From Burkholderiaceae bacterium (lineage in GTDB: Bacteria > Pseudomonadota > Gammaproteobacteria > Burkholderiales > Burkholderiaceae_C), in contig JAURWR010000068.1 in NCBI GenBank assembly GCA_030654805.1, forward strand, positions 1 to 50,470: 50,470 nt of DNA, given 5' to 3'. The notes under the pieces were generated by a model. That model ran no database searches, had not been told where the DNA came from, and was given only the letters and a program-made list of their open reading frames with translations. How positions within the stretch are numbered: the stretch's first letter is position 1; each line of letters starts with the position of its first letter. Both the position numbers and the translations under genes were made by a program. Below are positions 42,765-47,432 of this stretch, piece after piece.

Positions 42765-42905
42765 GTGACTTCCTGGGAGAAGTGCGGTGAGATCCTGGGC
42801 TCATGGGTAACGCGCACGAGCGGTCGCCAAGCAACCAGTCCCAGCACGCGATCAAGTATCGCGAACAGCGTCAACGCAATGTGGTGTTTCCGAAATCGAA
42901 AACAG

Positions 42906-43028
42906 AGAATTCGACGTCGCCCGCAGGCTCGCACGGTGCGGGGCTCGGGCAAGAAAAGCCCTCCACGGGGAGACGGCTCGGTCTTGATGTCGGTGGGCTC
43001 AGTCGCCAGCGAACCCATCTCAGCGCGG
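42906..43028 (+). repeat. 123-bp direct repeat, copy 1
   Basis: Near-identical (about nine bases in ten, by eye) to 47019-47141, same orientation. The longest exact match is 39 bp (42975-43013 = 47088-47126). It includes a worn hairpin that in copy 2 is a complete minus-strand terminator. The stretch 42765-43111 around it holds no convincing gene. Confidence 0.85.
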
Positions 43029-43111
43029 CGCTTGCTAACCGGGAAATATCACGGACGAAGCGGTGCGCCTCACTCTGCCACTGGATTTCGCTCCTCAAGC
43101 CCGAGGATGCT

Positions 43112-43751: not shown

Positions 43752-43958
43752 ATGCGCACCTTCGTATTGATCCTGTTGTGGTTGGGTGTCGGCGGCTTCG
43801 GGCTGATGACCTTGTGCAGCGGCATCTTCTCGACATCGGTGCCGCAGATCGCCCTGCCTTTCGGGTTGATCGCCGGTGGCTTGACCTGGGCTTGCTGGCG
43901 TGGCGTGCAACGCAGGCAGAAGCCGCCGCCCGCCAAAGACGGCTCACCACCGCCGTGA
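43752..43958 (+). CDS. Small membrane protein, first gene of the Lgt-like/radical SAM operon
   Basis: A 68-residue protein with two hydrophobic helices (about 3-24 and 32-49, VLILLWLGVGGFGLMTLCSG and LPFGLIAGGLTWACW) and a Pro/Lys-rich tail. Its stop overlaps the next start (GTGA at 43955-43958), so it is translated with the Lgt-like protein. It may be an accessory or membrane anchor for that enzyme. No family is recognised. The 293 bp before it hold nothing convincing. Confidence 0.65.
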   Translation: MRTFVLILLWLGVGGFGLMTLCSGIFSTSVPQIALPFGLIAGGLTWACWRGVQRRQKPPPAKDGSPPP

Positions 43959-44707
43959 TCGAATCGGCCAGCACGGCTGCCACGGTGCACGGCGCATTCG
44001 AGTTCGCCGCCATGGCCGCAGGCGCCGAACTGTACCGGCGGGCTCGCCAGCGCCACGGCATGGCACGGATGAGTGCGCGAGGCACCTTCGTCTTGATGGC
44101 CGGCCTGCTGATCGGCGCGGCGCTGGGCAACAAGCTGGTGTTCCTGATCGAGCGGCCGGACCTGTGGCTGGCCTTCTGGCGCGACGGGGCGCCGCTGCGC
44201 CTGGGGCAATCGCTGGTCGGCGGTCTGCTGGGTGGCCTGATCGGCATCGAGCTTGCGAAGGCGCTGACCCGGCAGCCGGCCTCCACCGGCGACCTGATGG
44301 TGCTGCCGCTGGCGGCCGGCATCGCCATCGGCCGCGTCGGGTGTTTTCTGGCGGGATTGCATGACGACACCTATGGCCTGCCCACCACCCTGCCTTGGGG
44401 GGTCGATCTGGGCGACGGCCTTGCCCGGCACCCGTCGGCGTTTTACGAGATCGCTTTCGTCGGCGCGCTGGCGGTCTTGCTGCACTCGCGGCGCGAGCGT
44501 CTGGCGGAGATTGCCGGCTTGCAGTTCAAGCTGTTCCTTTCCGCCTACCTGGGCTGGCGTCTGTTCGGTGACCTGCTGAAGCCGGTGCGCGTGCCCTATG
44601 CGCTGGAACTCAGCGGCATCCAATGGACCTGCCTGATCGCCCTGTTGCTCTACGTGCCCTGGCTCGCGCGGGCGAGCGCCCAACTTCACAGGCCGAGACC
44701 CACATGA
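43955..44707 (+). CDS. Lgt-like diacylglyceryl transferase family protein
   Basis: A 250-residue integral membrane protein, several helices, of the prolipoprotein diacylglyceryl transferase superfamily. Lgt moves diacylglycerol from phosphatidylglycerol to a lipoprotein Cys. Here the signature is GRVGCFLAGLHDDTYGLPT followed by HPSAFYE; the usual GRIGNFIN(G)E pattern is altered, with the first Asn replaced by Cys and the second by Ala. This variant is therefore unlikely to be the housekeeping Lgt and may use another acceptor or lipid. It starts with the GTG overlapping the stop of the small membrane protein, and its stop overlaps the ATG of the radical SAM gene, so all three act together. Confidence 0.8.
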   Translation: MIESASTAATVHGAFEFAAMAAGAELYRRARQRHGMARMSARGTFVLMAGLLIGAALGNKLVFLIERPDLWLAFWRDGAPLRLGQSLVGGLLGGLIGIELAKALTRQPASTGDLMVLPLAAGIAIGRVGCFLAGLHDDTYGLPTTLPWGVDLGDGLARHPSAFYEIAFVGALAVLLHSRRERLAEIAGLQFKLFLSAYLGWRLFGDLLKPVRVPYALELSGIQWTCLIALLLYVPWLARASAQLHRPRPT

Positions 44708-46182
44708 CGCGCAAGACCCGTCCATACCTGTTCTACGACACGACGCAGTCGGTTTGCACGCACTGCCTGCGGCCGGTGGAGGCCAAGATCGTCCTCAAGG
44801 GCGATCACGTCTACATGGACAAATGGTGCCCGGCGCATGGGAGCGAACGCGTGCTGATCAGCGACGACACCGCCTACTACCGGTTGTGCCGCGAGGTCTT
44901 CGTCAAGCCGCCGGAAATGCCGCAGCGCTTCGCCACCGCCATGCGCCACGGCTGCCCCTACGACTGCGGCCTCTGCCCCGATCACATGCAGCACAGCTGC
45001 CTGTCGGTGGTGGAGATCACCGACCATTGCAATCTGCGCTGCCCGACCTGCTACGCCGCCTCCGGGCCCGAACGGCTGACCCACCGCAGCATGACCGAGG
45101 TGCTGGCGATGCTGGATGCGGTCATCCAAAGCGAGGGCGAGGCCGATGTGGTGCAGATCTCCGGCGGCGAGCCGACCCTGCACCCGCAGCTGTTCGAGAT
45201 CCTGGACGCAGCACGCGACCGACCGATCAAGCACTTGATGCTCAACACCAACGGCCTGCGCATCGCCCAGGAGCCCGGCTTTGCGGAACGCCTGGCCGAG
45301 TACGGCAGCGGTTTCGAGGTCTATCTGCAGTTCGATTCACTGCAGCGCGAGCCGCTGATGGACTTGCGGGGGGCCGACCTGCGGCGCGTGCGCGAACAAG
45401 CACTGGACCGCCTTGATGCGGTGGGCCTGTCGACCACCCTGGTGATGACGGTCAAGCGCGGCGTCAACGACGACGAGATCGGTGCGGTGATACGCCACGC
45501 CGCGCAGCGAGCCTGCGTGCGCGGCGTGACGCTGCAGCCGGTGCAGGATGCGGGTCGGGTAGAAGCCTACGATCCTGCCCGCCACCGGCTGACGGTCAGC
45601 GAGATCCGCCGCCGCATCGTCGAGCAATCGGGCATCTTCAGCGCGGCCGATGTGGTGCCCGTGCCTTGCAACCCGGACACGCTGGCGATGGCCTACGCGT
45701 TGCGCGGCGCCGAGGGCAAGCTGCAGCCGTTGACGCGCTTCCTGGACCCGCAGACCCTGGTGGAAGGTTCGGCCAACACGATCGTCTTCGAGCGCGACGA
45801 CGCGCTCAAGGCACAGGTGTTCAATCTCTTCTCGACCAACCATTCGCCGACCTCGCAAGCGAACTGCTTGAGCGAGCTGATGTGCTGCCTGCCGCAGATC
45901 GAAGCACCGGCATCACTCGGTTACCGAGATGTGTTCCGCGTGCTCATCGTGCAGTTCATGGACGCCCAGTCGCTGGACATCCGGGCGCTGAAGAAAAGCT
46001 GCATTCACATCGCCCGTCCCGATGGCCGGATGGTCCCGTTCGAGAGCTTCAACCTGTTCTACCGCGACGAACGGGAGCACCTGCTGGAGACGATACGAGG
46101 CGAGCTGGATCTGCAACGTGGGCAACGCCTGGCTGCCGTGCCCGCACCAGCCGGGCGGATACCGATCAGGCCTGAGGCATGA
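44704..46182 (+). CDS. Radical SAM enzyme of the Tes/COG1964-like type
   Basis: A 492-residue enzyme with several iron-sulfur sites. The N-terminus has a rubredoxin-like set of Cys18, Cys21 and Cys42 (CTHC...CPAHG). A CX3CX2C cluster (Cys84, 88, 91, plus Cys99, HGCPYDCGLCPDH) precedes the radical SAM cluster Cys109-Cys113-Cys116 (CNLRCPTC). SGGEP follows near residue 155, and the C-terminus has SELMCCLPQ and CIHIARPDGRMVPFESFNLFYR. This layout fits the uncharacterised COG1964 group that includes archaeal tetraether synthase Tes (MJ0619), which joins lipid tails by C-C bonds. The function here is inferred. It overlaps the Lgt-like gene by 4 bp (ATGA), so a lipid- or lipoprotein-linked substrate is likely. 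Confidence 0.85.
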   Translation: MTRKTRPYLFYDTTQSVCTHCLRPVEAKIVLKGDHVYMDKWCPAHGSERVLISDDTAYYRLCREVFVKPPEMPQRFATAMRHGCPYDCGLCPDHMQHSCLSVVEITDHCNLRCPTCYAASGPERLTHRSMTEVLAMLDAVIQSEGEADVVQISGGEPTLHPQLFEILDAARDRPIKHLMLNTNGLRIAQEPGFAERLAEYGSGFEVYLQFDSLQREPLMDLRGADLRRVREQALDRLDAVGLSTTLVMTVKRGVNDDEIGAVIRHAAQRACVRGVTLQPVQDAGRVEAYDPARHRLTVSEIRRRIVEQSGIFSAADVVPVPCNPDTLAMAYALRGAEGKLQPLTRFLDPQTLVEGSANTIVFERDDALKAQVFNLFSTNHSPTSQANCLSELMCCLPQIEAPASLGYRDVFRVLIVQFMDAQSLDIRALKKSCIHIARPDGRMVPFESFNLFYRDEREHLLETIRGELDLQRGQRLAAVPAPAGRIPIRPEA

Positions 46183-46356
46183 ACGGCCGGCGAGTGGTCG
46201 CATCTATCGGCTACGTCGTGCCGGCAGAGGCAGAGGCAAACTGCCACCGGCAACCCGCCAGTCAGACCAAAGCCGTGGTGGCCTGACTTAAGCCAAAAAG
46301 CCTCCACGAATTCAGCGGCGGTTCATTCAGCCGCCGGTGCGTTGCTGGAGACAGCG

Positions 46357-46872
46357 ATGGCCTCGCAGCAGATCGAGGTGCCGACCCGGCTGGTCAAGCG
46401 CATCTCGGTGCGCAAGGATTCAATTGAAATCGAGGTCAGGGTTGCAACGATCTGGTCGGCAGAAGTAGCGACCAACGATAAGGATGAGGCAGACCACCTG
46501 AAAAGCGTGCCGGTGCAGTTGAAGCGCTGCGGGATGGCGGTGCGCTTGATCGTTGGGCCAGCGGGTGAATCGGCAACGCGTGGAACTGATGCGAAGCTGG
46601 TGGCCTTGATCTCGAAGGCGCCTGACTGGTTCGAGCGATTGAGCTCGGGACGCTGCGACAGCGTGCAGGCGATCGCGCAGCAGGAGCAGATCGCAAGTTC
46701 GTCGTATGTGACGCGGGTGATCTATCTCGCCTTCCTGGCACCGGACCTCGTGCAGCGGATCGTTCGGGGCGAGGAGCCGGTGGGGTTGACGGCGGATCGC
46801 TTGATCCGGATGGGGCCGCTGCCGGTGGCCTGGGAGGATCAGAGGGTGCTGCTGGGCATGGCCGGCGCATGA
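46357..46872 (+). pseudogene. C-terminal remnant of a large serine recombinase
   Basis: The 171-residue frame reads like the last third of element-encoded large serine recombinases: VPTRLVKRISVRKDSIEIEV, then SGRCDSVQAIAQQEQIASSS with YVTRVIYLAFLAPDLVQRIV, and PLPVAWEDQRVLLG at the end. The catalytic resolvase domain, the zinc ribbon and most of the coiled coil are absent; the frame runs upstream only into the end of the radical SAM gene. It is therefore a truncated remnant, left when an earlier element copy was lost or cut by the arrival of its left neighbours. An intact start of the same kind of protein lies at 49977. Confidence 0.8.
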
Positions 46873-47018
46873 CCCGATGAACGATCCACTCGACAGCGGG
46901 CCTTGTCGTTGCCGCAAAGCCATCTCAAGGCAAAGTGGTGGCGGCGAAATGGACGACAGAGAATGGCCGGCGGCTTGGCGACCATCACGCTCGAAATTGC
47001 GCCCTGCTGGCTGAGCAG

Positions 47019-47141
47019 AGTATTCGCCGTCGCCCGCAGGCCCGGGCGGTGCGGGGCTCGGGCAAGAAAAAGCCCTCCACTGGGGAGGGCTCGGTCTTGA
47101 TGTCGGTGGGCTCAGTCGCCAGCGAAGCCGTCTCAGCACGG
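47019..47141 (+). repeat. 123-bp direct repeat, copy 2
   Basis: Pairs with 42906-43028 in the same orientation, 4.1 kb apart. It begins 147 bp after the recombinase remnant. Confidence 0.85.
47066..47091 (-). terminator. Rho-independent terminator inside repeat copy 2
   Basis: AGCCCTCC (47071-47078), loop ACTGG, GGAGGGCT (47084-47091). On minus the stem is followed by a T-run (A-run 47066-47070). In copy 1 the same hairpin carries indels, so only copy 2 looks functional. Confidence 0.7.
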
Positions 47142-47432
47142 CCCAAAGTTGACAGGGAGGCTTACAGGGATTTGCCCGGAACTCGCGCGCAGACCGGTGC
47201 TCTGAGGCCGCGAAATGCAACAGGGCCGCGCGGTGTTCATCGCCAAGCGCCACTTGATTCGCAGGGTTCAGGCTGCGCACCAGTTCACCGTGGGGCAAGC
47301 AGGGCGCCACCCGTTCCACCGAGATGGATGTTATGCCCGCGCCATTCGGCGGCGCGCTCAGAAAAGTGTCGGTGTGGCGGCGCTTGAAGAAGTGATTCTG
47401 CCGCCAGGGTTGCGGTGCAGGCTCAGCGTTGA

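Follow-up and report, generated by a model that had tools for sequence, protein, structure and literature searches.

Introduction

To our knowledge, GDGT-MAS, also called Tes, is the sole characterised relative of the fold considered here. This lipid-tail enzyme has a hydrophobic tunnel in which bacterial phospholipids bind, and a proposal for its C-terminal domain is that the cluster there holds the substrate radical (PMC9433317). Bacterial Tes homologues have been proposed to make membrane-spanning lipids (PMC8941075), and three reports note that they have no confirmed reaction (PMC9433317, PMC8941075, PMC11868695). The bacterial membrane-spanning lipid synthase Mss is said to share its catalytic architecture with Tes (PMC13274423). 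Here, we analysed a three-gene operon encoding a small membrane protein, a protein resembling prolipoprotein diacylglyceryl transferase (Lgt) and a radical S-adenosylmethionine (SAM) protein of the Tes fold. It lies in a stretch of 50,470 nucleotides (the window) from contig JAURWR010000068.1 of a Burkholderiaceae bacterium (the host; assembly GCA_030654805.1). This three-gene set recurs in several phyla and probably carries out a membrane-lipid modification that has not been described.

In E. coli Lgt, H103, N146, R143 and R239 are essential (PMC13251419; for H103 also PMC4728403), and a part in binding the lipobox peptide has been proposed for H103 (PMC4728403). Deviations are on record: N146C occurs in distant Lgt paralogues such as MSMEG_5408, and some real Lgts carry Y, W or F at position 103 (PMC13251419). 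Therefore, changes at these two positions alone are not new. Radical SAM and prolipoprotein diacylglyceryl transferase genes occur together in a ~3.5 kb region of Pseudarthrobacter, which lies beside nitrate assimilation genes, is present in three single-cell genomes and absent in a fourth, and is mentioned without a function (PMC12010503). In the open-licence literature searched, the radical SAM/Lgt pair was mentioned in passing, and no proposed function, third partner or residue changes were found.

Results

Three overlapping genes form a conserved operon

The operon comprises the following features:

43752..43958, + strand: P0001, small two-helix membrane protein of 68 amino acids (aa) with a conserved motif of the G-F-G-x-L-C-G type (family hidden Markov model)
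43955..44707, + strand: P0002, Lgt-like membrane protein of 250 aa with a GTG start, a variant of prolipoprotein diacylglyceryl transferase (Pfam LGT)
44704..46182, + strand: P0003, radical SAM protein of 492 aa, with an N-terminal rubredoxin/zinc-ribbon site, an auxiliary cluster site, a radical SAM core and altered cysteines in the C-terminal domain (Pfam, motifs, predicted fold)
43955..43958, + strand: GTGA, shared by the stop of gene 1 and the start of gene 2 (sequence)
44704..44707, + strand: ATGA, shared by the stop of gene 2 and the start of gene 3 (sequence)

The stop-to-start overlaps described in the first-pass annotation of this DNA are present at these coordinates: the TGA stop of gene 1 shares bases with the GTG start of gene 2 at 43955, and at 44704 the TGA stop of gene 2 does so with the ATG start of gene 3. 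Two near-invariant family residues, H12 and E16, precede the next Met, in support of the GTG start. The Pfam matches of genes 2 and 3 are far beyond chance: P0002 matched LGT with 75.3 bits (gathering score 24.9), and P0003 matched Radical_SAM (89.9 bits) and Zn_ribbon_HMPTM (68.4 bits), both above the gathering score. The Pfam scan of P0001 gave no family above the cut-off. A protein search of the host genome found the radical SAM gene in single copy.

A scan of bacterial and archaeal genomes yielded at least 572 relatives confirmed by tblastn, of which the best 80 loci (58–83% identical) were kept. The first-pass annotation had made its proposal depend on conserved linkage of the genes elsewhere. 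Such linkage was found: in 77 of the 80 loci, no more than 2 kb separated an Lgt-like gene from the radical SAM gene, and the small protein was detected in 61 of the 80. In the remaining three loci (L040, at a contig edge, L061 and L066), a strict Lgt-like gene was present elsewhere in the genome, scoring 352–372 bits. The exact 4-base overlap of genes 2 and 3 was seen in 28 of 74 co-oriented pairs; in three Myxococcota loci, the Lgt-like and radical SAM genes are divergently oriented.

Co-occurrence was assessed in 274 genomes (host included) sampled evenly from the host's class, using strict cut-offs of at least 640 bits for the radical SAM protein and at least 134 bits for the Lgt-like protein. 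In these counts, for which a first look scored at most 5 or 9 candidates per genome, a strict radical SAM match was present in 8/274 genomes, and 7 of the 8 also had a strict, adjacent Lgt-like match (6/7 without the window's own genome). A strict Lgt-like match was found in none of the 266 class genomes lacking the radical SAM match, the next score being 92.8 bits (Fisher p = 4e-13, uncorrected for relatedness). Occurrence was patchy within the host family, as a radical SAM match at the level of the cassette was obtained in 3/60 genomes, host included.

The Acidobacteriota, sampled as 32 stretches fetched of about 100 rows plus 20 loci from the search, encode several types of related radical SAM proteins and served as a control. 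Loci with the cassette-type protein (57–62% identical) had an Lgt-like gene within ~3 kb in 7/7 cases, one of which (L117) repeats a locus, L075, already counted among the best 80. The Lgt-like gene was found in 0/42 loci with other radical SAM types (20 Tes, 13 of a group termed group 3, and 9 others), where the Tes loci mostly had 1.5 kb flanks and two with wider flanks gave the same result. Six of 146 Myxococcota genomes were positive, all with an Lgt-like gene beside the radical SAM gene, and the pair is also carried by a plasmid of Persicobacter (Bacteroidota), at 52.6% identity. In total, the cassette was seen in Pseudomonadota, Myxococcota, Acidobacteriota, a Planctomycetota metagenome-assembled genome and a Bacteroidota plasmid, so that the description of the system as new for this host was an understatement. 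A chance neighbourhood was rejected on the basis of the linkage, the Acidobacteriota controls, the class-wide co-occurrence and the unlinked copies in three genomes. Together with the recurrence of the small protein, these results bear out the view that the genes form one conserved operon.

The small membrane protein recurs close to the operon

A profile for the small protein was seeded with eight neighbourhood sequences and iterated over 6079 six-frame open reading frames (ORFs) of 86 loci; it should be noted that, as the seeds came from these same neighbourhoods, this was not a blind test. The profile matched 84 ORFs in 62/86 loci (61 of the best 80 and one of six further Acidobacteriota loci). 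All 83 matches with operon coordinates lay within 1.3 kb and on the strand of the operon, compared with 1053/5689 ORFs generally; 65 were upstream of the Lgt-like gene, 14 between the two genes, 3 downstream and 1 elsewhere. The motif Cys was kept in 84/85 aligned sequences and was surrounded by Gly at -2 (66/78), Leu at -1 (45/78) and Gly at +1 (54/78). A conserved R/K is found about 20 residues before this Cys (R2 and C22 in the window), and basic residues follow helix 2. By the positive-inside rule, the Cys would lie at the outer end of helix 1.

The Lgt-like protein is distinct from the housekeeping enzyme

Loci with a stop in the translated stretch (5 for the Lgt-like gene, 7 for the radical SAM gene) are left out of the family files. 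The radical SAM alignment (A1) comprises 41 of 71 usable loci plus the window, and the Lgt-like alignment (A2) 40 of 67 plus the window, with none of the divergent Myxococcota Lgt-like genes.

The AlphaFold2 model of the Lgt-like protein has a predicted local distance difference test (pLDDT) score of 94.3, and its only match in the Protein Data Bank with E < 0.001 was E. coli Lgt (5azb; E = 4.8e-05, TM 0.60). The counterparts of E. coli R143 and R239, namely R127 and R202, are Arg in 41/41 sequences, and those of G142 and G145, as well as the RH....Y motif, are invariant. The altered GRVGCFLAG signature corresponds to residues 126–134. The position of E151 is occupied by L in 36/41 sequences, Y26 falls in an alignment gap, and the G154 column is mixed (G in 19/41, D in 11/41). 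With the lgt model TIGR00544, the protein scored 21.2 bits, against the 118.9 needed, and the listed PRK00052 models were still further below their cut-offs. A separate normal Lgt (268.4 bits) is encoded on another contig of the host genome, and a high-scoring Lgt was present in 14/14 genomes checked. The claim that the operon protein is a variant distinct from the housekeeping enzyme therefore held, given this normal Lgt elsewhere and the replacement of both H103 and N146. For the same reasons, along with scores far below the curated cut-offs, an ordinary second Lgt was rejected.

The radical SAM protein has the Tes fold and forms a separate clade

The motifs that the first-pass annotation named for P0003 are all present in its sequence. 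The rubredoxin-like site is C18-X2-C21-X20-C42-X2-H45, the N-terminal auxiliary cluster site is C84-X3-C88-X2-C91 with H94, and the radical SAM cluster site is C109-X3-C113-X2-C116; none of their cysteines varies among the 42 aligned rows, nor do H45 and H94. For the rubredoxin iron as well as for the N-terminal and radical SAM clusters, the ligands agree in the alignment with those of MJ0619 (PMC9433317). R222 and Q278, which align with the SAM-binding Arg210 and Gln268 of Tes, are also invariant in the family. The AlphaFold2 model (mean pLDDT 85.4, with residues 356–393 below 50) was closest to the solved structures 7tom and 7tol, with TM 0.77 over 500 columns and 26–28% identity, and the other listed structures reached at most 0.39 by query length. 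The sequence match to Tes had an E value of 6.6e-65. The best matches thus include Tes and are not confined to a peptide- or tRNA-modifying family.

Scores with the curated NCBIfam models were lower than membership requires: P0003 obtained 263 bits with the Tes model (NF045702; cut-off 450) and 322 bits with the TrsS model (NF045646; cut-off 490). TrsS is a radical SAM (seleno)protein for which we know of no function. All 42 aligned family members match both models, and none of the 60 genomes sampled from the host family passed the Tes cut-off.

A tree of 73 radical SAM proteins was built with a quick method and rooted for drawing only. It does not include L092, L094, L101 and L109 (internal stops), L086, L087 and L117 (left out on purpose), or L105 and L106 (dropped by the duplicate filter). 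Within the tree, the closest relative of P0003 was from Mitsuaria (Sphaerotilaceae; 83% identical). The radical SAM family of the cassette forms one side of a branch with support 100 and groups with L110, L111, L122, L114, L113 and L123, and a branch supported at 99 separates it from Tes, group 3 and L108. The deeper joins are unsure because long branches meet there and the root serves only for drawing. L108 was the one tested row above the TrsS cut-off (571.5 bits) and falls on the Tes side of the tree; five further tested relatives passed neither the Tes nor the TrsS cut-off. As judged from its sequences, the cassette enzyme is a clade of its own, apart from Tes and true TrsS. A true Tes identity was rejected, since P0003 is below the cut-off, belongs to a separate clade and lacks the C-terminal cysteines described below; true TrsS identity was rejected because P0003 is below that cut-off too and L108 lies across a well-supported branch. 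The relationship to Tes proposed in the first-pass annotation is therefore supported for the fold and for three of the four Tes metal sites, but not as membership of the Tes family.

Two observations were made among the relatives. Tes-like radical SAM proteins have a third, common branch in group 3 of the Acidobacteriota (L124–L136), where most score 308–345 bits with the Tes model; in this branch, the cysteines of the N-terminal CX3CX2C are absent in 13/13 aligned rows and the three C-terminal ones are kept. In addition, the related radical SAM gene of L109 (Acidobacteriota, genome G158) contains a single in-frame TGA, possibly a codon for selenocysteine.

The C-terminal site of the radical SAM protein is altered

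Three cysteine columns, in HPxC, RC and PFC motifs, are Cys in 15/15 Tes, 13/13 group 3, 2/2 sister and 7/7 other rows; they would be the cluster ligands of the Tes C-terminal domain. All three cysteines are absent from P0003 in the alignment. In the cassette family, the first column is T, S or other residues, with C in 6/36 (T in the window), the second is S/T in 36/36 and the third E/D in 36/36. The CIHIARPDG segment (residues 433–441), which had been compared to Tes, does align with RCCIHYATPDD, but the preceding Cys and the downstream PFC Cys are both missing. The cassette family instead has C394, C395 and C433 in every row and C322 in 97%. Of these, C395 is confined to the cassette family, C394 is shared with two sister rows, and many relatives also have C322 and C433. 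These sister rows, L110 and L111, combine the three old C-terminal cysteines with C322, C394 and C433, as an intermediate might have. The position of Met439 of Tes is V/M in the cassette family, and that of Tyr459, strictly conserved in archaeal homologues, is I/M/F in 35/36 cassette rows (I in the window).

Genomic surroundings

A fusion of a major facilitator superfamily (MFS) domain with an acyltransferase is encoded upstream of the operon in 29/81 maps, in 27 of them within 0.72 kb of the Lgt-like gene. Pfam identified one representative of this fusion and one AMP-binding protein beyond it, and we take these neighbours to resemble the LplT/Aas phospholipid-repair proteins. The fusion was rejected as an obligate fourth part, as it occurs in 29/81 maps and not in the window. 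ORFs with a lipobox-like start lie between the Lgt-like and radical SAM genes in several loci; of six tested, Sel1 repeats were above the Pfam cut-off in one (L062), below it in three and absent in two. Such lipoprotein-like inserts were likewise rejected as an obligate part, being confined to a subset of loci. On plasmid pPP1 of Persicobacter psychrovividus (L186 9572–13381), the Lgt-like/radical SAM pair is followed, 2.2 kb downstream, by a gene for the polyunsaturated fatty acid synthase PfaA (1455.6 bits; cut-off 1010.1). The MFS/acyltransferase, lipoprotein-like and PfaA neighbours point to lipids, and none is universal.

In genome G369 (L143 2967–3848), the radical SAM gene is directly followed by a gene for a 294-aa protein with a lipobox-like start (LSAC), for which no NCBIfam match was obtained at E 1e-4. 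L110, L111 and L187 (a Mycolicibacterium vanbaalenii plasmid) carry radical SAM genes about 37% identical to that of the window, with no Lgt-like match in the locus. Here, the radical SAM gene lies beside an arsenite-methyltransferase-like gene of the DVU_1556 family (L111), a methyltransferase gene (L187) or a disulfide-reductase-like gene (L110).

In the window, a direct repeat of 127 bases (42903–43029 and 47016–47142; 86% and 91% identical in two comparisons, ~4.1 kb apart) flanks the operon region, and two more partial copies (85–87% over 91 bases) are present on other contigs of the genome. The repeat could be a dispersed element, or it may have been left behind when the operon arrived. 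Just downstream of the operon, a 176-aa ORF (46342–46872) may be part of a site-specific recombinase.

Discussion

A lipid-directed role is the best reading of these data, and we put the probability that the operon is a dedicated cassette for the radical modification of membrane lipids (acyl lipids) at about 0.5. This reading is supported by the gene linkage, the matching phyletic distribution, the Acidobacteriota and Myxococcota controls and the proximity of the small protein; by the full-length match (TM 0.77) to a characterised fold relative that acts on lipid tails; and by the retention of R127 and R202 in 41/41 Lgt-like sequences and the MFS/acyltransferase neighbour in 29/81 maps. In such a system, the Lgt-like protein would sit in the inner membrane and bind phosphatidylglycerol or a diacylglycerol unit via its retained arginine pair, and would present the bound lipid or transfer it to an acceptor, no longer being an ordinary lipoprotein Lgt. 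The radical SAM protein, soluble or peripheral and presumably in contact with its partners, would cleave SAM reductively, abstract a hydrogen from an acyl tail and then functionalise that carbon. The small two-helix Cys protein would be the third partner, either an adaptor or a lipid acceptor.

Several results weigh against this reading. In the G369 genome (completeness 72%), the radical SAM gene occurs without a strict Lgt-like match, and the profile search did not find the small protein in 19/80 loci and in 5/6 further Acidobacteriota loci. The window lacks the MFS/acyltransferase neighbour, to which the host genome gave only a partial match of 38.5 bits. In the Lgt-like family, the counterpart of H103 is V/L/I in 41/41 sequences (aligned with the host's own Lgt), and that of N146 is Cys in 41/41. 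TrsS, and not Tes, is the top-scoring named NCBIfam model for P0003. Finally, the C-terminal cysteines of the relatives are gone in 36/36 rows at two positions and in 30/36 at another; therefore, the chemistry may differ from that of Tes.

A more specific version of the lipid-directed reading, which we consider speculative and improbable, is a lipid carrier pathway: the Lgt-like enzyme would load a diacylglyceryl group on the Cys of the small protein, giving a membrane proteolipid, and the radical SAM enzyme, with its re-wired C-terminal site, would activate C–H bonds of the carried tails, with cross-linking, thiolation or another functionalisation as the outcome. If true, such a pathway would mean an undescribed class of membrane lipid in several bacterial phyla.

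Among the alternatives, a protein-directed system fares best, although we find it doubtful. The Lgt-like protein would lipidate a special acceptor, and this lipoprotein or its lipid would be modified by the radical SAM enzyme; candidate acceptors are the small Cys protein and, in some loci, the lipoprotein-like proteins encoded between the two genes. The ORFs with a lipobox-like start in several loci, one of the six tested having Sel1 repeats over the cut-off, would suit this idea, as would the small-protein Cys, which stands at the place of a lipobox Cys, though without a lipobox sequence. However, the lipoprotein-like proteins occur in a subset of loci only, H103, the proposed binder of the lipobox peptide (PMC4728403), has been lost, and the Pfam scan of the radical SAM protein found no peptide-binding domain.

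That the enzyme is a bacterial counterpart of Tes, joining two acyl tails by a C–C bond to give membrane-spanning or cross-linked lipids, seems unlikely to us. The fold (TM 0.77 to 7tom/7tol), the E value of 6.6e-65 and the retention of all ligands of the rubredoxin, N-terminal cluster and radical SAM sites are what such a counterpart would show, and membrane-spanning lipids have been proposed for bacterial Tes homologues (PMC8941075). Yet P0003 reaches 263 of 450 bits and falls in a separate clade, its C-terminal cysteines are replaced in the very domain that, according to the proposal for Tes, keeps the substrate radical at its cluster (PMC9433317), and Tes-like genes of the Acidobacteriota had an Lgt-like neighbour in 0/20 loci, mostly with 1.5 kb flanks. 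Lipid-tail cross-linking, which the first-pass annotation had put forward, can thus not be inferred from homology, as the protein is not a Tes and the C-terminal cysteines and the Tyr and Met positions differ; it is one possible outcome of the cassette and not the best supported one.

Finally, non-lipid chemistry as in the methyltransferase-linked relatives (e.g., thiol or metalloid modification), with the Lgt-like partner as a scaffold, is very unlikely: TrsS is the top-scoring named model (322 bits) and the nearest side branch lies beside arsenite-methyltransferase-like (L111) and disulfide-reductase-like (L110) genes, its plasmid relative L187 being beside a methyltransferase gene, but the true TrsS row L108 (571.5 bits) is on the Tes side of the tree, the side branch is below both cut-offs, no recurrent neighbour cluster resembled those partners by eye (no profile search was aimed at them), and the Lgt-like partner is specific to the cassette clade in the genomes compared.

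With one coherent bacterial clade split off from the Tes homologues, two membrane partners named for it and the differing residues located, a clade without a function becomes a system that can be tested in cultured bacteria of soil and fresh water. The cassette further includes a descendant of Lgt that seems no longer to take part in lipoprotein maturation. If lipid tails are modified, the cassette is relevant to those membrane-spanning and odd lipids of bacteria that serve as environmental markers.

Comparison with described systems

The bacterial members of the broad family that are on record without a function (PMC9433317, PMC8941075) probably include the cassette clade, as 'various Proteobacteria' are named there. 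The Pseudarthrobacter gene pair (PMC12010503) is like the cassette by description only; if it is the same cassette, the family reaches the Actinomycetota. By description only, too, Mss offers a radical SAM route to lipids coupled tail to tail (PMC13274423).

Compared with Lgt (5azb, PF01790, TIGR00544), P0002 shares the fold, the counterparts of R143, R239, G142 and G145 and the RH....Y motif, but H103 is changed to V/L/I, N146 to C and E151 mostly to L, and the protein scores far below the lgt cut-off. TrsS (NF045646) is the top-scoring named model for P0003, whereas its representative in our set, L108, keeps the C-terminal cysteines missing in P0003. Tes/GDGT-MAS (MJ0619, 7tol/7tom, NF045702) resembles P0003 over the whole fold, in the CX2CX20CX2H site, in the CX3CX2C site with its His and in the radical SAM CX3CX2C; it keeps the HPxC, RC and PFC cysteines, whereas P0003 has C322, C394, C395 and C433 instead. 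The operon with an Lgt-like gene and a small-protein gene is a feature of the cassette and not of Tes.

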